64,000 bases of DNA from Streptomyces sp. RPT161 (GTDB lineage: Bacteria; Actinomycetota; Actinomycetes; Streptomycetales; Streptomycetaceae). Where the stretch lies: NCBI RefSeq assembly GCF_027533845.1, contig NZ_JAPZVN010000002.1:372001-436000 (forward strand). The letters run 5' to 3'. The notes under the pieces are model-generated. The model worked only from the letters and a program-made list of their open reading frames with translations. It was not told where the DNA came from and did not search any database. Position numbers and translations under genes: made by a program. The stretch's first letter is position 1; each line of letters begins with the position of its first letter. Below are positions 34,833 through 50,377 of the stretch, piece by piece.

Positions 34833-34967
34833 CTTCCGGGCTCAAAGTGACTGCGGGGGAAGCGCGGTTGGGCCGGGTGGCGCCTTCCCTGCGCGTCGGT
34901 GGGAATGACGGGGGCCTGACGGCCGGTTCCTCCGCCACGCGCGCCACGCGGTCCCCTGAAACGCGGC

Positions 34968-35000
34968 GAGGGCCGCCACCCTGTACGGGCGGCGGCCCTC
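34968..35000. terminator. Hairpin beside attL, probably the original glnA terminator
   Basis: GAGGGCCGCC (34968-34977) pairs with GGCGGCCCTC (34991-35000). Before integration this would lie 32 bp downstream of the glnA stop codon on the minus strand. The element now separates it from glnA by 14 kb. The stretch 34833-34967 shows nothing recognisable. Confidence 0.7.
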
Positions 35001-35031
35001 GCCGTCGTGTCGTCGCGCCGCGACCGAGGGG

Positions 35032-35045
35032 CTTAGATGTCGAAG
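35032..35045. repeat. attL core (14-bp direct repeat)
   Basis: CTTAGATGTCGAAG, identical to 48967-48980. On the minus strand it reads TTC GAC ATC TAA, the last codons of glnA, so a small glnA remnant is left here. The similarity extends to 19 bp with two mismatches. Confidence 0.9.
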
Positions 35046-35219
35046 AACTGATGTGGTGGAGCGGCCACCTCAGGTGTTCGTTCGAGCTGCCGCCGTGAGC
35101 AGCGCGGATGCCGTCGTTGGTTGTCGTCATTGGTCATCTTTGGGTGCCGTCGGACGGCCCAGGGACGGCCCGGCCGAAACTCCGTGCCCGTTGTCAGTGG
35201 CTGCTCCTAAGGTGCAGCT

Positions 35220-36209
35220 ATGCATAAGGGGGCCATCGACCGCGAAGCGGTGCTCAAGACGCTGGACGAGTACGACCGGATGGGGCGCGAGGCGTTCCTG
35301 GCTGCATACGGCTACGGAGAGGCTCGGTCCTACCTGCTCGTCCACGAGGGCAAGGAATACGACTCCAAGGCCGTGGCGGGCGTGGCGCACCGACACGTAC
35401 ACGGCAGAGCGCTCAAGCCGGACGAGTTCAGCGGAGGCCGAGACCACGCAGCCAGGTGGCTCAGGGATTTGGGCTTCCAGGTGAAGTCCGTACGTAACCC
35501 CGACTGGGCCCGTGACGAGTTGATCCTCGCTTGCGCCCTGGTCGCCAAGAACGACTGGCGAGGACTCGACGCGGGCGACCTCAGGGTGGTGGAGCTGTCC
35601 CGGCTTCTACAGCTCATGCCCGTCCACGCTCAGGCGGAGCGCAACGAGACCTTCCGCAACCCCAATGGCGTTGCGCGCAAGACGTTCGACATCGCCACTC
35701 GGCATCCCGACTACCGCGGCAGGCCCACCAACGGGGGCGCGTTGGACCGGGTAGTCCTGCAAGACTTCCTCGACCGTCCCGCGGAGATGGAGAACTCCGC
35801 CCGCCTCCTCCGTGAGGGCATCGCCTCTGGTGAACTGACGGCCACTGCGCCCGTGAGCGACGATGAGATGGACGACTACAGTGCGCCGGAGGGGCGGCTT
35901 CTCCTGCGGAAGCACGTTGCTCGCGAGCGAAACAGAGGGCTCCGTAAACGGAAAATTGACGCAGTCCTCAAGCAAGGGGGGACCCTCGCCTGTGAAGCAT
36001 GCGGGTTCGACTTTGAGCGGCAGTACGGGGAGCGCGGTGCGGGCTACATCGAATGCCACCACGTAGTGCCGCTCCATGAAGCGGGTGAGGGTCGGACGAA
36101 GCTCGCGGACCTTGCCCTCATCTGCGCGAACTGCCACCGCATGATCCATCGACAGGCGCCGTGGCCGACGCCGAAGCAGTTGCGGGAAGTAATCGAAGCG
36201 CGGCGATAA
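35220..36209 (+). CDS. HNH endonuclease with sulfur-binding-like domain (ScoMcrA-like type IV restriction)
   Basis: A 329-aa protein with three parts. The N-terminus (about 1-85; VLKTLDEYDRMGREAFLAAYGYG, SYLLVHEGKEYDSKAVAGVAH) looks like the ScoMcrA head domain. The middle (about 90-190; LILACALVAKNDWR, VVELSRLLQLMP, ETFRNPNGVARK) resembles the phosphorothioate-DNA-binding SBD. The C-terminus is an HNH nuclease with CEACGFDF, ECHHVVPLHE and LICANCHRMIH. There is no SRA domain. It would cut incoming DNA bearing sulfur modification. It is the first gene inside attL and AT-richer than the chromosome. Domain assignments are from memory of the family. Confidence 0.82.
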   Translation: MHKGAIDREAVLKTLDEYDRMGREAFLAAYGYGEARSYLLVHEGKEYDSKAVAGVAHRHVHGRALKPDEFSGGRDHAARWLRDLGFQVKSVRNPDWARDELILACALVAKNDWRGLDAGDLRVVELSRLLQLMPVHAQAERNETFRNPNGVARKTFDIATRHPDYRGRPTNGGALDRVVLQDFLDRPAEMENSARLLREGIASGELTATAPVSDDEMDDYSAPEGRLLLRKHVARERNRGLRKRKIDAVLKQGGTLACEACGFDFERQYGERGAGYIECHHVVPLHEAGEGRTKLADLALICANCHRMIHRQAPWPTPKQLREVIEARR

Positions 36210-36287
36210 GAGCCGCAGAAACGTCACACGCTGGTTTTTTGGGCGACAGGCCCCGGCGCTGCCAGGGGCCTGCCGCGAGTGTTCTGG

Positions 36288-36983
36288 TCACGCCAAAGCG
36301 TCGGCTACTTCGCTCATGCTTGACGTGATCGCGTCCGCGCCAGCGGCGCGGAGTGCCTCGTGCTTGTGGGGTTTGTTAGCGAAGCCGATGGCCTTCGTGC
36401 GGGCGGCGTGGGCAGCCTCGATGTCCGTCACAGAATCACCGAGCAGCGCACAATCTTCGGCACGCACGCCGAGCGCTTGAACCGCCCGGCGCACCGAATA
36501 AGGGTGGGGCTTCATGCGTTCCGGCTGATGCTCGGGGCGCCCCACGATCACGTGGATATGAGAAAGCAACCCATGTCGGTCGAGAAATGCCCGCGCGCAT
36601 TGCTCCGAGTTGTTGCTCACGATGGCTACGCCACGGCCGGAAGCATAAGCCGTCTGAATCGCGCTGCTGGCTCCGCTGGTCGGATCCCCAGCTACCGCTA
36701 CGGCCTCTATCTCCCTCTCCTGAAGTGTGCGTTCGGTAGCCAGCACCAGCCCCCTGCCGCCTTGCTGTGACAGCCTGAGAATCTCCAGAGGGTCCTCGAT
36801 TCCCTCGGCCTTCGCACCGAGCGTCGGGTCATACTCGGCCACGGTCTGGCTCAACTCACGGGCGACCAACGTTGCCGGTAGGCCACGGAACACGTGGCAG
36901 ATGGGTCCGTCGAAGTCGAACAGTACCCCTGACGACGAGGTAAGTGCCGACGCCAGGCTGTTAGTGCCCGTATCAGTGCCCAT
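36288..36983 (-). CDS. HAD family phosphatase, cotranscribed with the GntR gene
   Basis: A 231-aa haloacid dehalogenase-type hydrolase. Motif I is LFDFDGPI (Asp nucleophile), motif II VAIVSNNS, motif III Lys in RMKPHPYSV and motif IV LLGDSVTDIEAA. It resembles phosphoglycolate-phosphatase-like members, with unknown substrate. ATG 36983 overlaps the end of the GntR gene by 11 bp, indicating an operon. Its role in the element is unknown. Confidence 0.88.
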   Translation of the reverse strand: MGTDTGTNSLASALTSSSGVLFDFDGPICHVFRGLPATLVARELSQTVAEYDPTLGAKAEGIEDPLEILRLSQQGGRGLVLATERTLQEREIEAVAVAGDPTSGASSAIQTAYASGRGVAIVSNNSEQCARAFLDRHGLLSHIHVIVGRPEHQPERMKPHPYSVRRAVQALGVRAEDCALLGDSVTDIEAAHAARTKAIGFANKPHKHEALRAAGADAITSSMSEVADALA

Positions 36984-37839
36984 CAGGGTCGTAATCCCTT
37001 CCGATGGAGTTCCATACGCTGTCGAACCACATCTGAGCCTGTTCGACTTGTTGTGCACCGCTTGATGGATCCTGGTCGTTTACCGAGTAGTGAAACAGGG
37101 TTGCGTCTACTCCAAGCAGGTCGAAGAAATCTACGGTTTCGCCCTGAATGCTGGCCTTGTTGGGGCGCACCGGATAGTACCCGAAGAACGCGTCTTGCTT
37201 GTTGATGACGTATAGCTTGAAGAACTGACTCCCGCTGTGAACTCGGGCCTGAACTTGCGTTTCCTTAACCAGGCCGAGGTGGCCAAGCTCATTTACGGAA
37301 TTCATAACTCCGCGAATTGAGCTTGCCGTGATTTCGCGGGCCCGAGTTCGTAGGCGAGGGTCATCTTCGCAGTCCGCCCGGAGTACCGGGACTGCCTGCG
37401 GAACAGACATGTCAGGGACGAGAATCCGAACGTTGACGCTCGCGGGAGTGAGCCGCCCTACTCGGATCTTGTCGAGTGGCTCCTGCAGCGCACCACGAAG
37501 GGTTTCGCTGGAAAAGCCAGCAAAGTCGATGGACACGTGCTCCTCAGAGAACGCCTGCTCCACGTAGGGCCTGAGACCGGCAGGCCGCTCTGTCCGGTTA
37601 CGCACGAACACGCCGCTGCCCTTGCGGGACACGACGAGCCCTTCGTCTTCAAGGTCACGTAGCGCCCGCTGAATGGTGGCCCTGGCAAATCCATACAGCT
37701 GGGTGAGCTCCTTCTGCGATGGCAGCTTGTCTCCGGGCGCCAGCTTCCGGGTGCGGATCGCCGCACTGAGGCTGCTTGCCACCTGCTCGTACGGCGGCCG
37801 GTCGTCGTCGGGGTCCAGTGGCTCAGGCAGGAAGGTCAT
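36973..37839 (-). CDS. GntR family regulator of the element (KorSA-like position)
   Basis: The winged-helix domain (about residues 1-80; PPYEQVASSLSAAIRTRKLAPGDKLPSQKEL, FARATIQRALRDLEDEGLV, GSGVFV) is followed by a C-terminal domain of about 200 residues that is not a typical UTRA. It occupies the place of korSA-type repressors in pSAM2-like elements. It is divergent from the transfer/replication genes, with candidate operators in between. ATG 37839 gives 288 aa. GTG 37881 is possible. Neither has a strong ribosome site. Confidence 0.88.
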   Translation of the reverse strand: MTFLPEPLDPDDDRPPYEQVASSLSAAIRTRKLAPGDKLPSQKELTQLYGFARATIQRALRDLEDEGLVVSRKGSGVFVRNRTERPAGLRPYVEQAFSEEHVSIDFAGFSSETLRGALQEPLDKIRVGRLTPASVNVRILVPDMSVPQAVPVLRADCEDDPRLRTRAREITASSIRGVMNSVNELGHLGLVKETQVQARVHSGSQFFKLYVINKQDAFFGYYPVRPNKASIQGETVDFFDLLGVDATLFHYSVNDQDPSSGAQQVEQAQMWFDSVWNSIGRDYDPDGH

Positions 37840-37893
37840 GGCTTCGATGCTACGCGGCGAACCCCCAATCAGGACAGTCACCTCAGTCAGGCG

Positions 37894-37923
37894 TTGACAT
37901 GGCTAGTCACGTCGTCCTACATT
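37894..37923 (+). promoter_or_regulatory. Strong vegetative promoter for the transfer/replication operon
   Basis: TTGACA (37894-37899) and TACATT (37918-37923) are 18 bp apart, an unusually good housekeeping-type promoter for this genome. It points right, away from the GntR gene and toward the DUF6284 to rep gene chain. Confidence 0.75.
37900..37909. promoter_or_regulatory. Candidate GntR operator O1
   Basis: TGGCTAGTCA lies between the -35 and -10 boxes. A second copy with one change (TGGCTAGCCA) starts exactly 40 bp later. CTAG-centred dyads are typical for GntR-type repressors. Confidence 0.65.
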
Positions 37924-37937
37924 CTTCTCGTGGCCGA

Positions 37938-37951
37938 CCTGGCTAGCCAGG
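37938..37951. promoter_or_regulatory. Candidate GntR operator O2, perfect palindrome
   Basis: CCTGGCTAGCCAGG is a 14-bp perfect palindrome just downstream of the -10 box, near the expected transcript start. It contains TGGCTAGCCA, matching O1. Confidence 0.65.
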
Positions 37952-38409
37952 GCAGTCACCAGAGAAACGCTGCACGTCAGAGCGGTCTTTACGGCTGCTC
38001 CCATGCACGGGGCGGGGACGCTGCAATCCCGCTAAAGGCCAGGTGGAACAGGGCTTCGGCCCGTACTGGCGAGGTGGCCCGGTGACCGCGAGCAACGGCC
38101 GGAGAGTGGGGACTCGGTCCCCCTTGCAGTGCAACTCCCAGTGAATCGACAGCAGAAGGGCGCTTCTGGTGCTCCAACGACATTGATGGGCGCCGCCGTG
38201 GTCAACCACATGGCGGCGCCTCCTGACATCGCAGCGGCTAGGGCTGCTGCCGGTTGCCTCCTCCGCCCGTCCGGTTCCGTGCACTGCGCGGGGGCCGTAC
38301 GGGCGGAGTTGTGGGGAGCCGGATGTACCGACTTCAACGGCGCGCGGCCCCGGTGTTGCACCACCGGGGCCGCTGTTTGGGGCCGTTCCTGGTGAAGGGA
38401 GCACGACCC
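37952..38409 (+). other. Long structured leader of the transfer/replication operon
   Basis: About 460 bp between the promoter and the first gene with no convincing coding frame. It holds two strong hairpins. One is at 38189-38220 (GGCGCCGCC arm with an inner GTGG/CCAC stem and TCAA loop). The other is the terminator-like stem at 38345-38372. It could be an attenuator, a regulatory RNA or an origin-related region. Confidence 0.55.
38345..38372 (+). terminator. Terminator-like hairpin in the leader
   Basis: Perfect 11-bp arms CGGCCCCGGTG and CACCGGGGCCG with a 6-nt loop, followed by CTGTTT. It ends 37 bp before the DUF6284 start, so it may attenuate the operon. Confidence 0.6.
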
Positions 38410-38679
38410 GTGAGGGACATCGGTGCACTTCAGGCGGTTGTTACCGCCGATGAGTTCGGCCGCGAGCCGTCGGCCGCGGAGCTGGACACGATCGAGCGTG
38501 AGATGCCCGTCATCCTGGCGGAAGTCGATCTGCTCGACGCGCAGATCACCACCTTGGACCGCACGCCGACCGAGGTGGATGCGCGGCGTATCCGCCGGGC
38601 GCGTAACCGGGTGCTGGCCGCCCGGCGAGACCTGGCCAACCGTACGGGCGGCGCGAGCCTGCCGGGAGGTGCGGCGTGA
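38410..38679 (+). CDS. DUF6284-like small element protein
   Basis: An 89-aa protein, alpha-helical and charged (EFGREPSAAELDTIEREMPVI, RRIRRARNRVLAARR). It matches my memory of DUF6284, which is typically the first gene of AICE transfer operons. GTG start behind AAGGGAG. Function unknown. It is coupled by GTGA to the next gene. Confidence 0.75.
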   Translation: MRDIGALQAVVTADEFGREPSAAELDTIEREMPVILAEVDLLDAQITTLDRTPTEVDARRIRRARNRVLAARRDLANRTGGASLPGGAA

Positions 38680-38948
38680 AGTGCAGCGCACGTCTGACCA
38701 ACAGCTTCATCGGCGAGTGGGAGCTGTACGTCGTCACCGACGGTACGAGCCTGGACTGGCCCGAGCACTCCTTTGAGCGGACCGCACCAGTGCCCACCTT
38801 GCAGGAACGGACGGATGCACTGGCCCTGCTCGGCTACTGCGCCGCGGACGACGCCGTGTGGGAGTGGCAGGAGATTCCCAGCGGCGTCATGGACCGTGTG
38901 GAGCTGCTGGCGTCGTTGGACGTTCAGCCGATGGGCGGTGCGGCATGA
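38676..38948 (+). CDS. DUF6303-like small element protein
   Basis: A 90-aa protein with ARLTNSFIGEWELYVV, DWPEHSFERTAPVPT and VWEWQEIP blocks, a pattern I recall as DUF6303. Its GTG overlaps the previous stop and its own stop overlaps the next ATG, so three genes are translationally coupled. Function unknown. Confidence 0.75.
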   Translation: MKCSARLTNSFIGEWELYVVTDGTSLDWPEHSFERTAPVPTLQERTDALALLGYCAADDAVWEWQEIPSGVMDRVELLASLDVQPMGGAA

Positions 38949-39808
38949 ACGCCAAGACCGTGCTCCCCGCCGTGGCGATGACGGGCGTGTCCATGGTGCT
39001 CACCCTGGCCATGGTCGTGATGTGGCTGGGCGCGGCAGTGCCGTGGCCGGTCGCCCTGGTCGTCGGTCTGGGGATCGATGGCGGGTGGCTGGCCACTCTC
39101 GCTTACGAGCGCCGTCTGGCCGCGCAGGGTGACCACAACCGTGCCGTAACCGGTGTCGGCTGGTGCTTCGGCCTGGTCGCGGCCGGTGTCTTGGTCGCGC
39201 ACGCGCTCACCGCCGGGCACTCCGGCGGCGCGTGGCTGGCCGTCGCGTGGATGCCGATCGCGGCTAAGGCCCTGTGGCTGGTGCACGGGCTGTGGGAGCG
39301 CACCGCGCTCACCCCGGCGGCGCTGGGCGTCATCCGGGGTATCCAGCAGGAGGCCCGGGACGAAGCGGCCGTGGCCCGCGCCCGACTCCGGGCGGAGGCG
39401 GCCACCGAGGAGACCCGGCTTGCGGCCGTGACGGGGGCCGGTGCCCGCGTCGCACGCGTCCAGGCCAAGACCGCTCAAACGCTTTCGAAGGCGTGGTCGA
39501 CGCTGGAGACGGCACGGGCGGGCGAGGAGACCGCCAGGGCGCTGACCAGCGTGACGGCCCGCGTCACGCCCGGTGTCGCACACCGTTGGGAACTGCCGGT
39601 CTGGGGCCCCACGCAGCCGGTTGCGCCGCTGACCCTGGGGACCGGGCCAACGCTCACCGACGAGGCGCTGGACGCGCTGGTTGACGAGATCCGTCACAGC
39701 GAGTCGCCCGCCTTGTCCTACCGGGAGATGGCCACGCGGTTCCGCGCGGCCGGTCACTCCGCCTCTGAGGTCCGTCTTCGGGCTGCGTGGAAGCGCGTGG
39801 CGGTGTGA
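38945..39808 (+). CDS. SpdA/DUF2637-like membrane transfer protein
   Basis: A 287-aa protein. Four hydrophobic segments lie in the first 115 residues (LPAVAMTGVSMVLTLAMVVMWLG; WPVALVVGLGIDGGWLATLAY; VTGVGWCFGLVAAGVLVAHAL; AWLAVAWMPIAAKALWLVHGLW). A long Ala/Arg helical stretch follows, then a C-terminal part resembling a winged helix (DALVDEIRHSESPALSYREMATRFRAAGHSASEVRLRAAW). This is the usual Spd-type protein of AICEs, thought to act in intramycelial plasmid spread. Confidence 0.78.
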   Translation: MNAKTVLPAVAMTGVSMVLTLAMVVMWLGAAVPWPVALVVGLGIDGGWLATLAYERRLAAQGDHNRAVTGVGWCFGLVAAGVLVAHALTAGHSGGAWLAVAWMPIAAKALWLVHGLWERTALTPAALGVIRGIQQEARDEAAVARARLRAEAATEETRLAAVTGAGARVARVQAKTAQTLSKAWSTLETARAGEETARALTSVTARVTPGVAHRWELPVWGPTQPVAPLTLGTGPTLTDEALDALVDEIRHSESPALSYREMATRFRAAGHSASEVRLRAAWKRVAV

Positions 39809-40146
39809 TGGGGGCGCTGCCGGTATTCCGGTGGCGCCTGGCCCCGGATGGATACGCCACGCGCCGACAACTGCGGGTGCGTGATCTGCGCCCCGGAGGT
39901 CAGGACGTGGCGGCCGAGTTGCAGCGTCCGCGCCGCGGTCGCGGGCCGCTGGTCGCCTACCTCTACCGCATCGACCAGGCCAAACCGGTGCGGCCCATGA
40001 CAGACGCGAAGTGGGCGGCGCTGGCCAAAGCCAACGCCGCCCGCCGTACCTGCCCGCGGTGCCGCCGTGATGCCGGATACGTCATTCCCACCTCGATCGG
40101 GATGTGCGTGTCCTGCGCCGACCCCGAAGAACAGCGCGCCGCCTGA
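39808..40146 (+). CDS. RRQRL-motif zinc-binding protein of the element
   Basis: A 112-aa protein. ATRRQLRVRDLRPGGQ is the RRQ motif region, and VAYLYRIDQAKPVRPMT follows. The C-terminal zinc ribbon has CPRC (about residue 85) and CVSC (about 103). Its ATG overlaps the previous stop (TGATG). Such proteins recur in Streptomyces integrative elements, function unknown. Confidence 0.8.
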   Translation: MGALPVFRWRLAPDGYATRRQLRVRDLRPGGQDVAAELQRPRRGRGPLVAYLYRIDQAKPVRPMTDAKWAALAKANAARRTCPRCRRDAGYVIPTSIGMCVSCADPEEQRAA

Positions 40147-40175
40147 ACACCCCACCCACGCCAAGGAGTTCTGTC

Positions 40176-40379
40176 ATGCCCAGCAACAACCACGCCGTGA
40201 CGTACGAGTGGAGCGCCGAACTGACTATCAGCGGTGAGCCGATGTGGGCCACCGGCACGTCCAGCGGGCCGGAGGGCTACAGCGTCGATGACGCCTACCG
40301 CGACGCCTGCGACGCCATGGCTCAGCTGGGGCTTGGGCACTTCCCCGGCAGTTTCGTCATTCGGCCCGTCCAGGGCTGA
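40176..40379 (+). CDS. Small element protein, unknown
   Basis: A 67-aa acidic protein (YEWSAELTISGEPMWATGTSSG, DDAYRDACDAMAQLG). ATG 40176 is behind a clear AAGGAG. No family recognised. Its place just before tra suggests a role in transfer or its control. Confidence 0.7.
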   Translation: MPSNNHAVTYEWSAELTISGEPMWATGTSSGPEGYSVDDAYRDACDAMAQLGLGHFPGSFVIRPVQG

Positions 40380-40460
40380 TCTCAGCGCGGGGCCCGGTCT
40401 CAACCGACCAAAGCAGCGGCCGGGCCCCGCTCCCTCCAAACATCTGTGGAAGGAAGCTCA

Positions 40461-42668
40461 GTGAACCACGAGGATGAGAACGAACTGTTCAAGCGACTCG
40501 AAGCCGACCTGGCCACCGAGCCGGGCGCTGAGGTAGTCGACCTGGACAAGGCACGGTCGGCCCGGACCGAGTCGCCCGACTCCATCACCGACTCGACAGC
40601 CGACTCCGAGCCGGGTCGGTCGGGTGGCGAGTCGGATGCCCCGGCCGATCGCGTGCTGGTCGACCAGCCGACCGCCCCGGCCGGTCCGGGCTATCTGGGT
40701 CGGCTGCTCAGCGCGAAGCGCCGTGCGGTCGTCCCGGAGTGGCTGAAGTCCACGGCGGAGTTGAAGACCGCTACCGGCTGGGTGGCGCGCCACTACGCGC
40801 ACGTGGCCGGGTATCACGGGCTGCGTGCCCCGGTCTACGCCGCCCGCCTCACCCTGCAAGCACCCTCCGGCGCCGCCAAGTTCATCGGCGGCATGATGCG
40901 GTGGATGGCCGACCGTGAGGGCGACCCGGTCCGCGCCGCCGCCGTTCGCCGTGAGGACGCGGCCGAGTACCTGAAGCTGTCGCGGCAGCGGGATGGTCGG
41001 GTCCGACTGCGGACCCTGGTCGCGGTGCTGGCCCTGTTCGTCGGAGTCGGGGCGGCGCTGGCCATCTACGTACTCGCCCCCGGCTGGCTTCAGGCCCTCT
41101 CGGTGAGCGCGGTGGTCATGGCGCTGGGCTACGCGGGCCGTAAGGCCGATGACCCGGTCATCCACCGGGCGGTGGAGCTGCCCAAGGCGACCAAGCTCAC
41201 CTCTGACATCGTGCTGCGCGCGCTCGGTGCGCTGGGCATCCCGGCCATCAACTCCGCGCAGGCCAAAGGGCGGGACGGGTTCGAGTTCACCGCCCCCATC
41301 ACCCGCGACGGTCCCGGTTGGCGGGCGGAGGGCAACCTCCCGTACGGCGTGACCGTCACCGACATCATCGAACGGCGCGAACGTCTCGCGTCCGGTCTGC
41401 GGCGCCCGCTGGGCTGTGTGTGGCCAGAGGCGGTTCCGGATGAGCACACCGGGCACCTGGTGCTGTGGGTGGGGGATCAGGACATGTCCCGCGCCAAGCA
41501 ACCGGCGTGGCCGCTGCTGAAGTCCGGCAGCGTGGACCTGTTCAAGCCGGTCGCTTACGGCACCGACCAGCGCGGGCGCTGGGTCGAAGCGACGCTGATG
41601 TACATCGCGGGCGTCATCGGCGCGATCCCGCGCATGGGCAAGACGTTCCTGCTCCGCCTGCTGCTGCTGATCGCGGCGCTGGACCCGCGGGCGGAGCTGC
41701 ACACCTACGACATGAAGGGCACCGGCGATCTGGACCCGGTCGGCAACGCCGTCTCCCACCGGCATGCCGCAGGGGACGATGACGAGTCGATCGTGTACTG
41801 CCTGAACGACTGCCGGGCGCTGCGCGAGGAGTTGCGGCGGCGCACGAAGGTGATTCGCTCGCTGCCGCGGGACATCTGCCCGGAGTCGAAGGTGACCAGC
41901 GCCCTTGCAGACAAGCGTTCGCTGGGGCTGCACCCGATCGTGTTCGCGGTGGATGAGTGCCAAGTGCTCTTCGAGCACGCCGAGCACGGCAAGGAGTTCG
42001 AGGAGATCATCACCGACCTGGTCAAGCGGGGACCTGCGACCGGCATCGTGGTCCTGCTGGCCACGCAGCGCCCCGATGCCAAGGCGCTGCCCACGGGCAT
42101 TTCCGCGAACGCGTCGGCCCGCTGGTGCCTGAAGGTCATGGGTCAGTTGGAAAACGACATGGTGCTGGGCACCTCCGCGTACAAGCGCGGGGTGCGGGCG
42201 ACCATGTTCGCCTGGGCCGACAAGGGCATTCACTACTTCGTCGGTGAAGGCTCCGACGCCCGGATCGTGCGCTCCATCTACGTCGACGGCCGCGACGCCG
42301 AAGCCATCGGCGCCCGCGCCCGCAAGATGCGCGAGACCGCTGGAACCCTGTCCGGGCATGCGCTTGGCGAAGCGCCGGAGGTCACGGCCGTGGCGTACGA
42401 CCTGCTCGCCGACATCCTTGCCGTCATCCCCGCCGACGAGCCGAAGGTGTGGTCCGAGACCGTCGTTGCCCGGCTGGCCGATCTGCGGCCGGAGGTCTAC
42501 GACGGATGGGACCCCGAAGCGCTCGCCACGGCGCTCAAGCCACACCTGATCTCCACCATCCAGGTCGGTCGCCGGGTGAACGGCAAGGTCGTCAACCGGC
42601 GCGGTGTCGACCGCTCCCACATCACTGCTGCGGTTGCGGAGCGTGACGGAAAGCGGGACGCGGGCTGA
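40461..42668 (+). CDS. tra: FtsK/SpoIIIE-like conjugal DNA translocase (TraB/TraSA)
   Basis: The key conjugation protein, which pumps double-stranded DNA between mycelial compartments. It has 735 aa. The N-terminus is acidic and Ser/Asp-rich. Hydrophobic segments lie at about residues 180-215. The ATPase has Walker A GAIPRMGKT (about 388-396) and Walker B HPIVFAVDECQ, then LLATQRPDAKALPTGI. The C-terminal part (ALATALKPHLISTIQVGRRVNGKVVNRRGVDRSHI) is a candidate winged helix for clt binding. GTG start behind GGAAGGAAG. Candidate clt repeats follow directly. Confidence 0.92.
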   Translation: MNHEDENELFKRLEADLATEPGAEVVDLDKARSARTESPDSITDSTADSEPGRSGGESDAPADRVLVDQPTAPAGPGYLGRLLSAKRRAVVPEWLKSTAELKTATGWVARHYAHVAGYHGLRAPVYAARLTLQAPSGAAKFIGGMMRWMADREGDPVRAAAVRREDAAEYLKLSRQRDGRVRLRTLVAVLALFVGVGAALAIYVLAPGWLQALSVSAVVMALGYAGRKADDPVIHRAVELPKATKLTSDIVLRALGALGIPAINSAQAKGRDGFEFTAPITRDGPGWRAEGNLPYGVTVTDIIERRERLASGLRRPLGCVWPEAVPDEHTGHLVLWVGDQDMSRAKQPAWPLLKSGSVDLFKPVAYGTDQRGRWVEATLMYIAGVIGAIPRMGKTFLLRLLLLIAALDPRAELHTYDMKGTGDLDPVGNAVSHRHAAGDDDESIVYCLNDCRALREELRRRTKVIRSLPRDICPESKVTSALADKRSLGLHPIVFAVDECQVLFEHAEHGKEFEEIITDLVKRGPATGIVVLLATQRPDAKALPTGISANASARWCLKVMGQLENDMVLGTSAYKRGVRATMFAWADKGIHYFVGEGSDARIVRSIYVDGRDAEAIGARARKMRETAGTLSGHALGEAPEVTAVAYDLLADILAVIPADEPKVWSETVVARLADLRPEVYDGWDPEALATALKPHLISTIQVGRRVNGKVVNRRGVDRSHITAAVAERDGKRDAG

Positions 42669-42674
42669 CCGTCC

Positions 42675-42766
42675 GGGGCCGCTAGCGCTAGCGGCACACC
42701 CCGCTAACGTTAGCGGCCCCGCTAGCGCCCCAAACCCGCTCTGATCAGGCCGCTAGCGGATAGCGG
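42675..42766. repeat. GCTAGCGG repeat cluster after tra, candidate clt transfer locus
   Basis: GCTAGCG occurs at 42681, 42687, 42721 and 42752. CCGCTAACGTTAGCGG (42701-42716) is a perfect 16-bp palindrome of the variant form, CCGCTAGCGG lies at 42750-42759, and ATAGCGG follows. In Streptomyces plasmids the TraB-binding clt with 8-bp repeats often lies just downstream of traB. Confidence 0.65.
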
Positions 42767-42810
42767 CCCACCTGTGCAAACCCCTTGAAACCTGCCTGGG
42801 AGGGCCCGTC

Positions 42811-43062
42811 ATGACCCCTGCCCTGCTCGCTATCACACTGCTCATCGGCATAACACTCTGTTACGCAGCTGTGTGTGCTGCCTCGCCGTTCGGCAACTGC
42901 CGCAAGTGCCGCGGCTTCGGCTTCGCGACCACCACCGACCGCAAAGGCCGCCTCAAGCGCGGCAAGCCGTGCCGCCGCTGCGACGCCACCGGCAAGCGCA
43001 TCCGCATAGGCCGCTGGCTGTTCAACCGCGCCGCCCGCATCCACCACGACGGCACCCGCTGA
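42811..43062 (+). CDS. Small membrane-anchored zinc-motif protein
   Basis: An 83-aa protein. An N-terminal hydrophobic helix (ALLAITLLIGITLCYAAVCA) is followed by CRKCRGFGF and CRRCDATGKRI, two CxxC motifs like half a DnaJ zinc finger. The C-terminus is basic. GGGAGGG precedes the ATG. Small proteins of this kind are frequent in AICE spread regions. Confidence 0.75.
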   Translation: MTPALLAITLLIGITLCYAAVCAASPFGNCRKCRGFGFATTTDRKGRLKRGKPCRRCDATGKRIRIGRWLFNRAARIHHDGTR

Positions 43063-43099
43063 ACCCCCTGCTCCCGCCACCGATCGGAGCACCCCGCCA

Positions 43100-43294
43100 A
43101 TGACAGTCACCTTCTCCGCCGTGGTCCTGCTGGGCATCGCGGCGTTCCTCGCCCTGAAGATGCGCTCCGCCAAGGCCGGGGCCGCCGTCGTGCTGTTCCT
43201 CTTCGGCTTCTTCGCCGCCCACAGCAGCGCCGCCGGAGCCATCAACGGCATGTGCCAGTCCTTCGCCCACTTCCTCGCCCACCTGCGCGCCTAA
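43100..43294 (+). CDS. Small hydrophobic spread-type protein
   Basis: A 64-aa protein with two hydrophobic helices (FSAVVLLGIAAFLAL and AGAAVVLFLFGFFAAHSSAAG). It lies in a run of small membrane genes after tra, the usual place of spd genes. GGAG lies about 10 nt upstream. Function inferred from position only. Confidence 0.65.
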   Translation: MTVTFSAVVLLGIAAFLALKMRSAKAGAAVVLFLFGFFAAHSSAAGAINGMCQSFAHFLAHLRA

Positions 43295-43308
43295 CCAGGA
43301 GGCTCACC

Positions 43309-43776
43309 GTGAACGAACCCACCGCCCACCGCCGCCCTACCGGGCCCGACACAACGGCCTTACAGGTCCACCGCCCCGCCCCGATCACGCCCGCGCACCC
43401 CGCGCTGCTCGCGTCCGTCCAGCCCGCCAACATCCCGGCCGTGGCGAGCGTCGTCCTGCCGGACGGACGAGTCGTCACCGGCTACGCCATCGAACCCGCC
43501 AAGCCCGAACCCGTCGCGGTCAAGCCCATGGTCTCCCGCGCGGCGGTGAACGTCGCCCTCGGCGGCATCGGGTTCGGCGCCATCTGCGGCGGGCTGTTCT
43601 TGCTGACTGCGTTCCTCGCCGCCCTCACCGCCTTCATCCACGCGCTCATCATCCTCACCGCCGTCATCTTCGGCGGCTGGGTCGCCGTCCAGGTCTTCGG
43701 CCACCACCCCGGCGGCAGCGGGACGACGGTTCACATCCGCAAAGCCGTCATCAAGCGCAACCACTTCCACGGCTGA
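43309..43776 (+). CDS. SpdB-like membrane protein
   Basis: A 155-aa protein. A Pro-rich cytoplasmic N-terminus of about 70 residues is followed by two hydrophobic helices (VNVALGGIGFGAICGGLFLL; FIHALIILTAVIFGGWVAVQVF) and a basic tail (IRKAVIKRNHFHG). GTG start behind AGGAGG. A spread function is likely from context. Confidence 0.68.
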   Translation: MNEPTAHRRPTGPDTTALQVHRPAPITPAHPALLASVQPANIPAVASVVLPDGRVVTGYAIEPAKPEPVAVKPMVSRAAVNVALGGIGFGAICGGLFLLTAFLAALTAFIHALIILTAVIFGGWVAVQVFGHHPGGSGTTVHIRKAVIKRNHFHG

Positions 43777-43785
43777 AAGGAAGCC

Positions 43786-44394
43786 ATGTTCGAGATCCGC
43801 GTCATCTGCGACCCGATCGACACCGACCGTATCGTCGCCGCGCTGGACAGCACGTTCGCGACCGGCACGGTGGCGACTGTCTGCCCCACCCGCGACGGCA
43901 AGCGGCACCGCCTGTACGTCACCGCTGACCACCGCCCCGAGCCGGGATCGTGGCCGACGCCGGAGCAGGCATACGCGAACGCGCCGAGCATCGTCCAGGA
44001 GATCGGCTGGACCGCCCGCACCCTCGCCGAGACCGAGTGCTTCACGGAGTTGGACCGCGAGTTCTACCTGCGCAAGGCCGCACTGCTGGACCGCATCGCG
44101 CTCCTGGACGAGCCCGACGAACCCGGCGACGCCACCGAGGCAGCCGAAGCCACGGCCTTGGTTCTGCTCGACACCGACAAGAGCGCGGGCGGCCGGTACC
44201 ACGGCCGGGGGTACTGGCCCGAACACCCCGTGGCCGAGGCCAACCCCCGCGGCTACGTCCGTCAGGAATACGCCCAGTGGTGGGCGAGGGAAGGCCGTGA
44301 CCAGCACCGCGCGGCCCGGCTCGCAGCAGGCCAGTGCCCCAACTGCGCCTGGCCTCAGCACCAGTGCAACTGCGCTGACCACCCCGACGCCTGA
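43786..44394 (+). CDS. Element protein of unknown function with C-terminal Cys motif
   Basis: A 202-aa protein. The start MFEIRVICDPIDTDRIVAALDSTF looks like a ferredoxin-type fold segment. The middle is acidic, and the end CPNCAWPQHQCNC may bind zinc. AAAGGAAG precedes the ATG. It lies between the spread and replication modules. Confidence 0.68.
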   Translation: MFEIRVICDPIDTDRIVAALDSTFATGTVATVCPTRDGKRHRLYVTADHRPEPGSWPTPEQAYANAPSIVQEIGWTARTLAETECFTELDREFYLRKAALLDRIALLDEPDEPGDATEAAEATALVLLDTDKSAGGRYHGRGYWPEHPVAEANPRGYVRQEYAQWWAREGRDQHRAARLAAGQCPNCAWPQHQCNCADHPDA

Positions 44395-44482
44395 CTACGC
44401 CCGGGACGGCCGCCACGTCTCGCCAAAGAACCGCGGCCGTCCCGGCTCCCCAGAACTCATCACAGAACTGGAGGTCTCCAGC

Positions 44483-45388
44483 ATGACCCATGCTCCCCGT
44501 TCCGCGCTGCTCCGCGCGGCGCTGGACGCTGCCGACCAAGGGTGGCCTGTCATCCCGCTACGCCCCGGCGGGAAAGCCCCCGCCCTCCACGGTGAGCGCC
44601 ACTGCCCCGGAACCGGCGAGTGCACCGACGGGCACCGCACGTTCGAGCAGCGAGCCACCCTCGCCCCCGAGCGCATCGAACGCTGCTGGGCGACTGGCCC
44701 GTTCAACGTCGGCATCGCCACCGGCCCCGCCGGGCTGCTGGTCATCGACCTCGACACACTCAAGCCCAAGGACACAAAGGGCACGCCTGACGGCGTGACG
44801 AGCTTCTTGGCGCTCTGCGAGCGCGCCGGACAGCCCCTCCCCACCACCCGCCGCATCCGGACTCCCAGCGGTGGACAGCACCTGTACTTCACCGCCCCGC
44901 CCGGCGTCAGACTGCACAACACCGCGGGGACCCTCGCCCCGAAGATCGACACCCGAGCGTGGGGCGGGCAAGTCGTCGCACCCGGCAGCACCACGCCATA
45001 CGGCCCGTACACGGTCCTGGACGACTCGCCCGTTGCAGACCTACCCGAATGGCTCCAACACGCCCTGACGGCCCCACAGAGGCCAGCGGCGGCCCCGGTC
45101 TTGCCGATGCCCACCCGCAGTCGCAGCCGGTACGCCGCCGTCGTCCTTGACCGCGAGGCAGCCGCGGTCGCCGCTACAGCCGAGGGCGGCCGTAACGCCG
45201 AACTACTGCGCGCCGTACGGGCGGTGGGCCGGTTCGTGGCCTGGCACGACCTCGACCGCGCCACCGTAGAAGCGGCTTTTCAGGCCGCGGGCGAGACGGC
45301 GGGACTGCCAGCGTCCGAGTGCCGCGCCACGATCCGCAGCGCCCTGGACTGGTCCATCCGCACCGCCCGGCCCCGGGAGACGGCATGA
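44483..45388 (+). CDS. Bifunctional DNA primase/polymerase (RepPP-type replication protein)
   Basis: An archaeo-eukaryotic-primase-type protein of 301 aa for element replication. It has LDAADQGWPVIPLRPGGKAP at the N-terminus. FNVGIATGPAGLLVIDLDTLK (about residues 72-92) contains the catalytic DxD in VIDLD. RIRTPSGGQHLYF and DTRAWGGQVVAPGS are the other prim-pol motifs. A helical C-terminus of about 100 residues follows (EGGRNAELLRAVRAVGRFV). GGAGG lies upstream. With the helicase gene two genes on it makes up the prim-pol class of AICE replication module. Confidence 0.9.
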   Translation: MTHAPRSALLRAALDAADQGWPVIPLRPGGKAPALHGERHCPGTGECTDGHRTFEQRATLAPERIERCWATGPFNVGIATGPAGLLVIDLDTLKPKDTKGTPDGVTSFLALCERAGQPLPTTRRIRTPSGGQHLYFTAPPGVRLHNTAGTLAPKIDTRAWGGQVVAPGSTTPYGPYTVLDDSPVADLPEWLQHALTAPQRPAAAPVLPMPTRSRSRYAAVVLDREAAAVAATAEGGRNAELLRAVRAVGRFVAWHDLDRATVEAAFQAAGETAGLPASECRATIRSALDWSIRTARPRETA

Positions 45389-45762
45389 CCACCAGCCCTT
45401 CCCGCCCCGCCCTGAAAAGCATCCCCACCTGCGACCGGCCCAGCACCGCCGAACCGACCGGCGGTACCCCCGGCCATAGCGCGCTGAAGAACGCCGCCCG
45501 TCAGGGCGTCCGATCTGCTCTGCGTCCTGACCCGCACCCGGCCACCCCGCCCCGCGGGGACGGACGCACCCCGGTCGCCTGGCTCCACGTCACCGCACCG
45601 TCCGACCGGCAAGCGATCCCGTCGGCCACCTCGTGGTGCCAGTGCGGCCGGTACCGCACCGCCACCGGCCGCACCAACGTGCTCCGGCTGGTCGAAGCCC
45701 ACACCGCCCACCGCGAGCACTGCCCACTCCGCAACCCCACCGAGAGGAGGAACGCCGCATGA
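45385..45762 (+). CDS. Small Cys/His protein between prim-pol and helicase
   Basis: A 125-aa protein with a disordered N-terminal half. The C-terminal half is WCQCGRYRTATGRTNVLRLVEAHTAHREHC, a possible zinc site (C-x-C, H, H, C). It overlaps both neighbours by ATGA, so it is probably part of the replication module. No family recognised. Confidence 0.72.
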   Translation: MTTSPSRPALKSIPTCDRPSTAEPTGGTPGHSALKNAARQGVRSALRPDPHPATPPRGDGRTPVAWLHVTAPSDRQAIPSATSWCQCGRYRTATGRTNVLRLVEAHTAHREHCPLRNPTERRNAA

Positions 45763-47168
45763 CCGAGCCGGAAGAACTACCCGCCCCGTCCAACCCCATG
45801 GCCGTCGCGCGACGACTCCTCCCCGACTGGCAGACCCCCGATGGGAACCTGCTGTGCCGACGCTGGCGCGGCTCATGGATGCGCTGGACCGGTACCTGCT
45901 GGCGCGAGCTGGACGACCAGCAGATGCGAGCCTCGCTCTACAAGCGGCTGGAGCACGCCACCTACACCGCAGGCACCGACAAGGACGGACAGCCGGACAT
46001 CCGAGACTGGGCCCCCACGAAGCAGAAGATCAGCAACCTGCTAGACGCGCTGGGCGCCATCACCCTGCTACCCACAGACGTTGACGCCCCGGCCTGGATC
46101 GACCAGCAGGCAGACGAGCATGACCACAGCCCGATCGTGGCCTGCCGTAACGGGCTGCTGCGCATCCGGGACCGGGCCCTGCTCCCGCACGGCCCAGGAT
46201 TCTTCAACCTCGTCTCCGTGCCCTACGCCTACGACCCACAAGCCACCGCCCCCACCTGGGAACGCTTCCTGCGGCAGATCTGGCCCGACGACCAGCCCGC
46301 CATCGACGCGTTGCAGGAGTGGTTCGGCTACGTCCTATCCGGCCGCACCGACCAGCAAAAGATCCTGCTCATCAAAGGTCCGTCACGGTCCGGGAAGGGC
46401 ACCATCGCCCGCGTCCTGAAAGAACTGGTCGGACGCGAGAACCTCGCCGGACCCACCCTGGCCGGACTCGGCAGCAACTTCGGCTTGTCGTCCCTGCTGG
46501 GCAAGCCGCTCGCGGTCATCTCCGACGCGCGCCTGTCCGGCAACGACGGCGGACAGGTCGTGGAACGGCTACTGACCATCTCCGGTGAAGACACCATCGA
46601 CATCGACCGCAAGTACCGCGACCCGTGGACAGGCAAGCTGCCCACCCGGCTGATGATCCTCACCAACGAGCTGCCGAACTTCGGCGACTCCTCCGGGGTG
46701 ATAGCCCGCCGGTTCGTCGTGCTCAACATGACCGTCTCCTGGCTCGGCAAGGAAGACACCGGCTTGACCGACAAGTTGGCAGCGCAGATGCCCGGCATCC
46801 TCAACTGGGCACTGGACGGCCTGGCCCGGCTGGAGCACACCGGCCGGATCACCGAACCACCCTCCAGCCGGGAAGCGGTCATCACCATGCAAGACACCGC
46901 CTCCCCGACCAGCGCGTTCGTCCGCGAACGCTGCACCACCGGCCCCACATGCAGCGTGCCCGTGGACACGCTGTGGGCCATCTGGCGGGAGTGGGCCGAG
47001 GACAACGGCGTGCGCGCCGTCGGCACGAAGCAGATGCTCGGCCGCAACCTGCAATCCGTCGTCCCCCAGCTCCGCCGGACACGGCCCCGAGACCAGTACG
47101 GCCGGCAGGTGCCCACCTACAACGGGATCACCCTCAACCAGTCCGAACCACATTTGTCTGAGCCGTGA
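45759..47168 (+). CDS. P4-type (D5-like) replicative helicase/primase
   Basis: An SF3-type helicase of 469 aa. An N-terminal D5-like region (about 30-190) contains the SPIVACRNGLLRI motif. Walker A is LLIKGPSRSGKGT (about 206-218), Walker B is AVISDARL, and ILTNELPNF is the sensor Asn motif C. A C-terminal winged helix (about 390-440) ends the protein. It should unwind the excised element at its origin. It is coupled to the small protein upstream. Confidence 0.9.
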   Translation: MTEPEELPAPSNPMAVARRLLPDWQTPDGNLLCRRWRGSWMRWTGTCWRELDDQQMRASLYKRLEHATYTAGTDKDGQPDIRDWAPTKQKISNLLDALGAITLLPTDVDAPAWIDQQADEHDHSPIVACRNGLLRIRDRALLPHGPGFFNLVSVPYAYDPQATAPTWERFLRQIWPDDQPAIDALQEWFGYVLSGRTDQQKILLIKGPSRSGKGTIARVLKELVGRENLAGPTLAGLGSNFGLSSLLGKPLAVISDARLSGNDGGQVVERLLTISGEDTIDIDRKYRDPWTGKLPTRLMILTNELPNFGDSSGVIARRFVVLNMTVSWLGKEDTGLTDKLAAQMPGILNWALDGLARLEHTGRITEPPSSREAVITMQDTASPTSAFVRERCTTGPTCSVPVDTLWAIWREWAEDNGVRAVGTKQMLGRNLQSVVPQLRRTRPRDQYGRQVPTYNGITLNQSEPHLSEP

Positions 47169-47217
47169 CTCAGCGCGACTCAATGCCCTGCCGACCCGCT
47201 CTGAGTCGCGATGAGTC
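47167..47217. repeat. Paired GACTCA inverted repeat after the helicase gene
   Basis: GACTCA occurs at 47167 and 47177 and its complement TGAGTC at 47202 and 47212. The two 16-bp arms match at 15 of 16 positions and are 19 bp apart. Each half-site pair is spaced exactly 10 bp. Candidate replication origin, Xis/Int arm site or terminator. Confidence 0.7.
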
Positions 47218-47256
47218 GCTTCTCAGAGCAATGTGGCTCCAACTCTGGAGGACGCA

Positions 47257-47502
47257 GTGAAGCCGCCCCGTGTCCCGGAGGAGACCAATCCCAGAGCCAC
47301 CCTCCGCGGTGGACTCCCGGACCGGTACCTCACCCCTGACGACATAGCCGAACTATTCGACGTGCCCAAAGAGACCGTCTACCAGTGGCGTAAGAAGCGC
47401 ACCGGTCCGCCCGGATTCCGCATCGGCAAGCACATCCGCTACGACCCCGTCGCCGTAAGTAACTGGACCACCAAACGTATGGCCGAGGACGCCGCCGTCT
47501 AG
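47257..47502 (+). CDS. xis: Excisionase (MerR-like helix-turn-helix)
   Basis: An 81-aa DNA-binding protein. YLTPDDIAELFDVPKETVYQWRKKRTGPPGFRIGKHIRYDPVAV is the AlpA/Xis-type winged helix of the helix_turn_helix_17 kind. The GTG start at 47257 has GGAGG ending 5 nt upstream. ATG 47233 is less likely. It directs excision together with the integrase. Confidence 0.88.
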   Translation: MKPPRVPEETNPRATLRGGLPDRYLTPDDIAELFDVPKETVYQWRKKRTGPPGFRIGKHIRYDPVAVSNWTTKRMAEDAAV

Positions 47503-47518
47503 CACCTGCCGTCATCAA

Positions 47519-47556
47519 GGGCCAGGTGCAGCCAAGTCGCTGCACCTGGCCCTTTT
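47519..47556 (+). terminator. Intrinsic terminator between xis and int
   Basis: GGGCCAGGTGCAG (47519-47531) pairs perfectly with CTGCACCTGGCCC (47540-47552), loop 8 nt, followed by TTTT. The best intrinsic terminator in the window. Confidence 0.9.
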
Positions 47557-47587
47557 CGTGCTCACACTGCCCCTGAGAGGAACTGCT

Positions 47588-48856
47588 GTGGCAGGCCACA
47601 TCCAAGACCGTTGGTTCAAGACCGAGACCGGACCCGATGGCAAGACCCGGCGGGTCAAGACTGACCGATACGGCACCGGCATGCGCTACCGCGCCCGGTA
47701 CGTGGCGCCGGACGGGAGTGAACGCAGCCGCTCATTCCCTGACAAGCAAAAGCGCCTCGCCGAAGCCTGGCTGACGCAGATTGCCGCCGACATGACCCGC
47801 GGCCAATACGTTGACCCGTCTGCGGGGAAGGTGACGTTCCAGCAATTCGCCACACAGTGGCTCGCGTCGCAGACGACGGACCCCGCCACCATCGTGGCCA
47901 TGGAGCTCCGGCTTAGGCTGCACGCCTTCCCGCACATCGGGTCGCGTTCACTGAGCGCTTTCCAGCCTGGTCACATCCGCACCTGGGCCCGGGTGCTGAA
48001 GGACTCCGGCATGGCGTCCTCGTACCAGCGCGTCATCTTCGCGAACGTCTCCGCCGTGTTCGGGGCGGCTATGGATGACGGCATCATTGCCCGAAACCCG
48101 TGCCGGGCTGGCTCAGTAAGAGCTCCGAAGCTGGACGCCCGGAAGCTCAAGCCATGGACCCGTGAGCGGGTGCTTGCTGTCCAAGACGGGCTGCCGGAGC
48201 AATACGCCACGACTGTGGACGTGGGCGCCGGTTGCGGACTTCGCCAAGGCGAGATCTTCGGACTCGCCGTGGATGAAGTCGACTTCCTCGCGGGCGTCGT
48301 CCACGTCGTCCGGCAGGTCAAGATGGTTGGCTCGCACTTGGTGTTCGCCCCGCCCAAGGGCGGGAAGCTGCGTGACGTGCCGCTGCCCGACGTGGTGTCG
48401 TACGCGCTTGCCGCACACATCACCAAGCGTCCGCCCATCGATGTCACGCTGCCGTGGAAGACGCCGGACGGGCCGCCGGTCACCGCCACGCTGATTTTCT
48501 ACTCGCGCGAGCGTAAGGCGCTGAACCGGAACTACTTCAATATGTATCTGTGGAAGCCCGCATTGGTCTCCGCAGGCGTCATCCCGCAGCGTCAGCCGGG
48601 GGAGCGGTTCAAGCAATCGCGCGAGCACGGCATGCACGCGCTGCGGCACTACTACGCGTCGGTGCTGCTGGACGCGGGGGAGAACATCAAGGCCCTGGCC
48701 GAGTACCTCGGTCACTCGGATCCCGGCTTCACGCTGCGCACGTACACGCACCTGATGCCCAACAGCCAGGACCGCGCCCGCAAGGCTATCGACGCCGCGT
48801 TCGGCGTAGCGGTGGGAGACGACGGCGATGGCGGCGAGGCGATGGCCGCCGCCTGA
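47588..48856 (+). CDS. int: Tyrosine recombinase, site-specific integrase
   Basis: A 422-aa phage-type integrase. The N-terminal arm-binding region is RYRARYVAPDGSERSRSFPDKQKRLAEAWL, and a SAM-like core-binding domain follows (about 70-165). The catalytic residues are Arg in CGLRQGEIFGL, His/Arg in HALRHYYAS, His in LGHSDPGF and the nucleophile Tyr in LRTYTHLM. GTG 47588 is behind GAGAGGAA. It ends 111 bp before the attR core inside the glnA 3' end, the usual place for the integrase of such elements. Confidence 0.95.
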   Translation: MAGHIQDRWFKTETGPDGKTRRVKTDRYGTGMRYRARYVAPDGSERSRSFPDKQKRLAEAWLTQIAADMTRGQYVDPSAGKVTFQQFATQWLASQTTDPATIVAMELRLRLHAFPHIGSRSLSAFQPGHIRTWARVLKDSGMASSYQRVIFANVSAVFGAAMDDGIIARNPCRAGSVRAPKLDARKLKPWTRERVLAVQDGLPEQYATTVDVGAGCGLRQGEIFGLAVDEVDFLAGVVHVVRQVKMVGSHLVFAPPKGGKLRDVPLPDVVSYALAAHITKRPPIDVTLPWKTPDGPPVTATLIFYSRERKALNRNYFNMYLWKPALVSAGVIPQRQPGERFKQSREHGMHALRHYYASVLLDAGENIKALAEYLGHSDPGFTLRTYTHLMPNSQDRARKAIDAAFGVAVGDDGDGGEAMAAA

Positions 48857-48871
48857 CTCCAGCCGCAGAAA

Positions 48872-48921
48872 GGGCCGTCGGCCGTGCCCTTCCGGTAGTG
48901 GAAGGACACGGCCGACGGCCC
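48872..48921. terminator. Bidirectional terminator between int and glnA
   Basis: Perfect 15-bp arms GGGCCGTCGGCCGTG (48872-48886) and CACGGCCGACGGCCC (48907-48921), with an inner CCTTCC/GGAAGG stem. It serves both the plus-strand int and the minus-strand glnA. It belongs to the element, so it replaces the terminator that glnA lost on integration. Confidence 0.88.
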
Positions 48922-48966
48922 ACAGACGGCCCAGGGGAGCGAAAACCCGCTCTGACCTGCGGCGAT

Positions 48967-48980
48967 CTTAGATGTCGAAG
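48967..48980. repeat. glnA: attR core inside the glnA 3' end
   Basis: CTTAGATGTCGAAG, identical to 35032-35045. It encodes the last three residues and stop of GlnA, so integration leaves the protein unchanged. Confidence 0.9.
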
Positions 48981-50377
48981 TACAGCTCGAACTCGTGCGG
49001 GTGCGGGCGCAGTTGCATCGGGGCGATTTCGTTGGTGCGCTTGTAGTCGATCCAGGTTTCGATCAGGTCCGAGGTGAACACGCCGCCCTGGAGCAGGTAT
49101 TCGTGGTCGGCCTCCAGGGCGTCCAGGACGGCCGGGAGGGAGGTCGGGACCTGGGGGACGTTGGCGTGCTCCTCGGGGGCCAGCTCGTAGAGGTCCTTGT
49201 CGACCGGCTCGGCGGGCTCGATCTTGTTCTTGATGCCGTCGAGACCGGCCAGCAGCAGGGCCGAGAAGGCCAGGTACGGGTTGCTGGACGGGTCGGGGGC
49301 GCGGAACTCGATGCGCTTCGCCTTGGGGTTGGCACCGGTGATCGGGATGCGGATGGCGGCGGAGCGGTTGCGCTGCGAGTAGACCAGGTTGACCGGGGCC
49401 TCGAAGCCCGGGACCAGGCGGTGGTAGGAGTTCACCGTCGGGTTGGTGAAGGCCAGCAGCGACGGGGCGTGCTTGAGGATGCCACCGATGTAGTAGCGGG
49501 CGGTGTCCGACAGGCCCGCGTAGCCCTGCTCGTCGTAGAACAGGGGCTCGCCCGCGTTCCACAGCGACTGGTGGCAGTGCATGCCCGAGCCGTTGTCGCC
49601 GAAGATCGGCTTCGGCATGAAGGTCGCGGTCTTGCCGTTGCGCCAGGCCACGTTCTTGACGATGTACTTGAACAGCATCAGGTCGTCGGCGGCGGCCAGC
49701 AGCGTGTTGAACTTGTAGTTGATCTCCGCCTGGCCCGCGGTGCCCACCTCGTGGTGCTGGCGCTCGACCTTCAGGCCCGCCTTGTTCAGCTCCAGCGAGA
49801 TCTCGGCGCGCAGGTCGGCGAAGTGGTCCACCGGCGGGGCCGGGAAGTAGCCGCCCTTGTAGCGGACCTTGTAGCCGCGGTTGTCCTCCAGCGCACCGGT
49901 GTTCCAGGCGCCCGCCTCGGAGTCGATGTGGTAGAAGGACTCGTTCGACTTGGTCTCGAAGCGCACGCTGTCGAAGACGTAGAACTCCGCCTCCGGGCCG
50001 AAGTACGCGGTGTCCGCGATACCGGTGGAGGCCAGGTATGCCTCGGCCTTCTTCGCCACGTTCCGCGGGTCACGGCTGTACTGCTCGCCGGTGATCGGGT
50101 CGTGGATGAAGAAGTTGATGTTGAGGGTCTTGTCCCGGCGGAACGGGTCGACCCGGGCCGTGGACAGGTCGGCGCGCAGCGCCATGTCGGACTCGTGGAT
50201 GGCCTGGAAGCCGCGGATCGAGGAGCCGTCGAACATCAGGTCCTCGGCGGGGTCGAACGCCTCCACCGGCACCGTGAAGTGCTGCATGATGCCGGGCAGG
50301 TCGCAGAACCGGACATCGACGAACTTGACGTCCTCGTCCCGCAGGAACTTCTTGGCCTCGTCGGCGTTCTGGAACAT
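48968..50377 (-). CDS. glnA: Glutamine synthetase type I (GSI-beta)
   Basis: Main ammonium-assimilating enzyme of 469 aa, a dodecamer. It has the N-terminal [16 protein letters not shown] and [21 protein letters not shown] carries metal Glu residues, [16 protein letters not shown] follows, and [12 protein letters not shown] and NRSAAIRIP complete the active site. The adenylylation Tyr lies in DLYELAPEE, the target of GlnE. The start at 50377 is behind GAGGAGGAG. The 3' end is the attR of the inserted element and is intact. A GlnR box lies upstream. Confidence 0.97.

Follow-up and report, generated by a model that had tools for sequence, protein, structure and literature searches.

A 13.9-kb AICE-type element at the 3' end of the glutamine synthetase gene glnA, and the target sites of its integrase family

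What is the DNA that lies between two copies of a short repeat beside the glutamine synthetase gene glnA, and do the repeats mark an insertion? In the window, the 64-kb stretch of DNA analyzed here, the 14-bp direct repeat CTTAGATGTCGAAG occurs as two exact copies with 13.9 kb between them (Table 1). There is no further copy in the window, even with up to two mismatches allowed. Dinucleotide shuffles gave a mean of 0.07 matches, and two matches were reached in 1 of 100 shuffles. The significance of the repeat by itself is only moderate, and we therefore looked for independent evidence.

Boundaries and gene content of the element

The genome set comprised three genomes of the host genus and a 396-genome sample of the family. 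Because this sample covers 17 genera, the label "Streptomyces" is loose for the finding. The window flanks, joined over the repeat, form one 2,073-bp block that aligns at 91% identity in the congener G002. At this empty site, CTTAGATGTCGAAG is present once as the end of glnA, the flanks are unbroken, and glnA is 99% identical to the window gene. In addition, the window has exactly two copies of the arm-type repeat GACGGCCCAnnGACGGCCC, each lying just inside an end of the element. The G002 empty site and the confinement of GACGGCCCAnnGACGGCCC to the two inner ends prove the insertion. The preliminary description had proposed comparing glnA flanks in relatives; the comparison yielded this unoccupied site, not a relative with the same genes at glnA and no duplication.

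One could still suppose that the repeat arose by chance and that ordinary indels 3' of glnA account for the gene content, as might be suggested by a second congener, G001, in which about 2 kb of ordinary genes and no element separate the flanking gene from glnA. However, the exact G002 alignment refutes this idea, the arm repeats lie at both ends and nowhere else, and attL/attR pairs recur in other genomes. We consider its probability negligible. G001 itself, where glnA is more than 1.5 kb from the flanking gene, was tried as a second insertion and rejected, because the intervening DNA is a sigma-factor/decarboxylase region and the core is not duplicated.

The element runs from left to right as attL, arm repeat, HNH and HAD cargo, GntR regulator, DUF6284 protein, Spd-like protein, TraB-like protein, Prim-Pol, P4-type primase, Xis, integrase, hairpin, arm repeat, and attR. 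Several features identify an AICE. A site-specific integrase is flanked by attL and attR, and there is a replication module of the element's own, with a Prim-Pol protein (PF09250) and a TIGR01613 primase. The single FtsK/SpoIIIE-type transfer protein, TraB, was recognized through its family. A profile built from 12 homologues hit FtsK structures at 2.9e-11 and, at 1.2e-12, a DNA translocase coupling protein; searched alone, the protein gave weak matches only, and PF01580 was matched by 4 of the 12 homologues and not by the window protein itself. As is expected of an AICE, no relaxase or type IV secretion gene was found among the open reading frames scanned, which included part of the small ones. 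The membrane protein next to traB matched no family in profile searches, and its homologues (75 to 85% identity) are present in many related integrase loci. Judged from its sequence, the element is complete in gene content. Therefore, the earlier claim that the 14-bp repeat bounds a complete element holds for the bounding, by the empty site and the arms, and for completeness in the sense of gene content alone.

Phages also have tyrosine integrases and P4-type primases, and a prophage or phage satellite could in principle show this part of the gene set. We regard such an origin as very improbable. No capsid, terminase, or tail gene was recognized in the 13.9 kb, and an FtsK-type TraB, a Spd-like protein, and a GntR regulator are present. 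Moreover, the closest integrase in phage records is 29% identical, and none was found in viral contigs.

Table 1. Features of the element and its flanks (window positions)
Feature	Position	Strand	Evidence or remark
Original glnA terminator hairpin, now displaced, on host side of attL	34962..35005	.	-51.7 kcal/mol, z -9.4
attL core CTTAGATGTCGAAG	35032..35045	+	Nine other genomes have a similar core and the element arm at +122
Left arm-type repeat GACGGCCCAGGGACGGCCC, putative integrase arm site	35153..35171	+	+122 from core, invariant in other attL sites
Cargo, HNH endonuclease domain protein	35220..36209	+	PF01844, 5e-10
Cargo, HAD-family hydrolase	36288..36983	-	PF00702, 1.9e-19
GntR-family regulator, putative KorSA-like role	36973..37881	-	PF00392, 5.9e-20
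DUF6284 protein	38254..38679	+	PF19801, 1.3e-38
Membrane protein adjoining traB, likely Spd (spread)	38936..39808	+	Role suggested by position
TraB-like FtsK-type DNA translocase (transfer protein)	40446..42668	+	12-homologue profile
Two small proteins between tra and rep modules	43252..44394	+	No confident match in family searches
Bifunctional primase/polymerase, replication module	44480..45388	+	PF09250, 2.1e-45
P4-type primase/helicase, replication module	45756..47168	+	TIGR01613 over cut-off, 2.5e-52; DUF5906/D5_N
Xis, excisionase-type HTH protein	47233..47502	+	PF12728 HTH_17, 9.9e-11; weak TIGR01764; directly before int
Tyrosine integrase, 422 aa	47588..48856	+	PF00589, 1.8e-16; clade located at glnA
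Element-borne hairpin between int and glnA	48872..48922	.	-62.4 kcal/mol, z -10.3
Right arm-type repeat GACGGCCCACAGACGGCCC	48914..48932	+	-52 from core in most other glnA attR sites
Conserved element-side motif CTCTGACCTGCGGCGAT adjoining core	48949..48966	+	Near-identical in other glnA elements
attR core: glnA last three codons (Phe-Asp-Ile), stop, one further base	48967..48980	+	
glnA, glutamine synthetase, host target gene	48968..50377	-	PF00120, 5.6e-139

Integration at the end of glnA

The reading we prefer, with a probability of about 0.94, is that of an integrated 13.9-kb AICE whose tyrosine integrase would recombine the attP of a circular form with an attB formed by the final glnA codons. 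A tRNA target was considered and rejected, because the window contains no tRNA or tmRNA gene and none adjoins the integrase in the glnA loci. The existence and boundaries of the element at its glnA site are strongly supported. The gene set, the empty site, and the arm repeats thus confirm the proposal of the preliminary description that an AICE-type element occupies the glnA 3' end. It was also right that the right repeat copy consists of the last glnA codons and stop, with one extra base, that the integrase adjoins attR, and that the glnA protein is unaltered. The left copy had been taken for a passive remnant. Instead, it is attL, in which the host's former glnA-stop region is joined to the attP half of the element.

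The point of crossover is indicated by two genomes (G412 and G427) in which attL and attR are not identical. There, attL has the host ATC TGA and attR has the element ATT TAA, and GTCGWAG is common to both. These mismatches place the crossover within GTCGWAG, and consequently the element provides the stop codon and the last codon of glnA. Integration in this way re-creates the glnA reading frame and leaves the protein unaltered.

The remaining steps are predicted from the genes and sites present. The integrase would bind the arm repeats and the core, and Xis would drive excision. The Prim-Pol/P4-type module may then replicate the circular form, and the FtsK-type TraB would transfer double-stranded DNA to recipients. 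The hairpin on the host side of attL has a counterpart directly 3' of glnA in the G002 empty site. The element-borne hairpin is likely a replacement terminator for both convergent genes, int and glnA, and would take over from the original glnA terminator, now displaced by 14 kb. A weak point of this scheme is that some relatives do not have a perfect arm repeat at one end.

Recurrence of the glnA site

Integrase relatives were gathered from named genomes and from the 396 family genomes. In about 20 further species, most of them Streptomyces and one an Actinomadura, integrases of at least about 80% identity are located at the 3' end of glnA. Every named relative down to about 81% identity, and one of 77% identity, is convergent with glnA; they come from 16 Streptomyces strains and one Actinomadura. 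The loci with this arrangement are L070 to L084, L087, and L148, together with an intact copy in G142 and decayed copies in G301, G211, and G128. The preliminary description had asked whether integrase homologues also sit at glnA or at tRNA genes with other cores, and the close relatives proved to be at glnA in species after species.

The attachment sites recur as well. Using a degenerate core pattern, we found attL/attR pairs on the same contig and strand in the window genome and six other genomes, with a spacing of 13.5 to 21.4 kb. The spacing is 7.2 kb at L148, and the attL sites of L159 and L177 are on other contigs of draft assemblies. The arm repeat is at exactly +122 in nine attL sites outside the window and at -52 in most attR sites. 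At three loci (L078, L084, and L178) a gene of about 1 kb lies between the integrase and attR, and the integrase is therefore not always terminal.

Among 30 sampled glnA 3' ends, the right-end signature is present in the window and in seven others. These seven (L214 to L220, in G017, G044, G024, G066, G054, G074, and G013) have a hairpin, an arm-like repeat, and a GAGCGG..CCGCTC motif adjoining glnA, and no intact integrase was found in the 6 to 19 kb examined. They look like relics at a hot spot, or are possibly ancestral host sequence that gave rise to attP. Such right ends in 7 of 30 sampled genomes, and the broken integrases of G301, G211, and G128, show that decayed relatives are common at glnA. 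The window element might likewise be a defective or ancient AICE, now fixed and no longer mobile. We think this unlikely, since all of its core genes are open, its two cores match exactly, and neither arm repeat is damaged.

Other traces were seen in single genomes. In Streptomyces poonensis (L180, G417:C5:111500-131000), the DNA to the left of attL, at about position 1528, resembles the right (arm) end of another element. From this sequence, elements appear to pile up in tandem at glnA. The genome of the window element also contains, near a contig end (G000:C69:41477-44444; L002, L006, and L039), a broken integrase relative of 47 to 57% identity, accompanied by a fragment that shares 79% identity with the HAD cargo protein. 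By its gene remains, this locus is a decayed sibling element.

Each of the 61 family genomes sampled has glnA, and the DNA encoding the last residues of the enzyme is nearly invariant, with GTCGAAGTA kept at the 3' end in 30 of the 30 genomes read. The glnA end is therefore a dependable integration site across streptomycetes, and integration vectors could use it as a portable attB without disrupting the gene. Some elements have a Val-type core, CACGTCGAAG. Their hosts have a glnA with Val as the last residue, and a single clade inside the Ile type holds their integrases.

Other targets of the integrase family and comparison with known elements

When eight target groups were mapped on a tree of 85 integrases, 7 changes of target were needed, which is the minimum possible. 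The sister clade of the glnA integrases is located at a MurA/EPSP-family gene whose end shares 11 bp, CTTAAATGTCG, with the glnA core. The two clades have the same arm repeats and spacing; they differ in the target, which ends ...FRDI* in the MurA-family gene and ...YFDI* in glnA. Further clades are found at a second glutamine synthetase gene, a phosphoglycerate-mutase-like gene, nusG, and a CAP-domain gene, with one target per clade. Duplicated target ends were found for the second glutamine synthetase (39 bp, L110), the phosphoglycerate-mutase-like gene (L098 and L101), and the CAP gene (L090 and L092). At the MurA-family loci, no duplicated end in the sequence within reach was convincing. 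Of 109 relatives, 93 have the arm motif after the integrase; the background in about 1.66 Mb was 19 copies elsewhere on the same strand and 8 on the other strand.

Several observations add to this picture of the family. The second glutamine synthetase paralogue is targeted at its 3' end by a separate integrase clade of 58 to 62% identity (L100, L102, L103, L107, L109, L110, L114, L118, L125, L129, L134, L136, and L068). Another clade (L094, L106, L113, L117, L119, L122, L124, L126, L130, L132, and L137) has a common downstream target, and ARAGORN calls a tRNA-Gly in one member only (L126). At L179 (G221:C45), an integrase of 78% identity that is near the glnA clade is at a different core, TTTCAAATGCGCG. 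An 18.5-kb Streptomyces "plasmid" (NZ_CP107792.1, hit H2) encodes an integrase of 60% identity, and it may be an AICE in its excised circular form.

The same TraB/replication modules occur with different integrases at other sites. L117 and L119, for example, have TraB proteins of 83 to 84% identity and Rep proteins of 83 to 87% identity, with an integrase of 58% identity. Conversely, the elements at glnA carry unrelated TraB types. Together, these findings argue that integrases are exchanged as modules.

On balance, we favor a model in which one large AICE integrase family has spread by retargeting the 3' ends of conserved protein genes, namely glnA, the glutamine synthetase paralogue, and the MurA-family, phosphoglycerate-mutase-like, nusG, and CAP-domain genes. 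In this model, the attP arm geometry stayed largely fixed while the short core changed, and every target gave rise to one clade. The glnA clade would itself have shifted further, in step with the change of the last codon from Ile to Val. This clade-by-clade retargeting is the most interesting extension of the glnA finding. The target map, with similar arms and a changing core, lets the change of specificity in a tyrosine integrase be tested, and it contrasts with a published statement (PMC9513070) that the sequence of an AICE integrase does not correlate with its site.

The preliminary description had considered a core protein gene undescribed as an AICE attB. This does not stand. In their survey, Choufa et al. 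2022 (PMC9513070) counted 14 of 51 conjugative elements in protein-coding genes, among them rlmN and a gene for a glycosyltransferase. According to Ghinet et al. 2011 (PMC3218068), integrases of the pSLS subfamily do not target tRNA genes. PAISt of Streptomyces turgidiscabies uses the bacA 3' end (PMC4057263). No pSLS record was recognized among our plasmid matches. glnA was not named as an integration site in the literature searched, which covered few subscription journals and no supplements. The element is therefore of a known type, and its site appears to be one that the searchable literature has not yet named.

Compared with the AICEs of streptomycetes (pSAM2 and SLP1; surveys of Ghinet 2011 and Choufa 2022), the element has the same att-tra-rep-xis-int-att order, and it is alike in its Prim-Pol replication, single FtsK-type transfer protein, size, and integrase beside one att site. 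However, pSAM2 and SLP1 target tRNA genes, whereas this element uses the glnA 3' end with a 14-bp core. The AICEs at rlmN and the glycosyltransferase gene (PMC9513070) and the pSLS subfamily (PMC3218068) likewise have a protein gene as attB and short direct repeats; the rlmN repeat is 11 bp, and glnA is not named as a target for them. PAISt (PMC4057263) is also at the 3' end of a conserved protein gene, but it differs from the element here in being a large island with an 8-bp palindromic site and bacA as its target.
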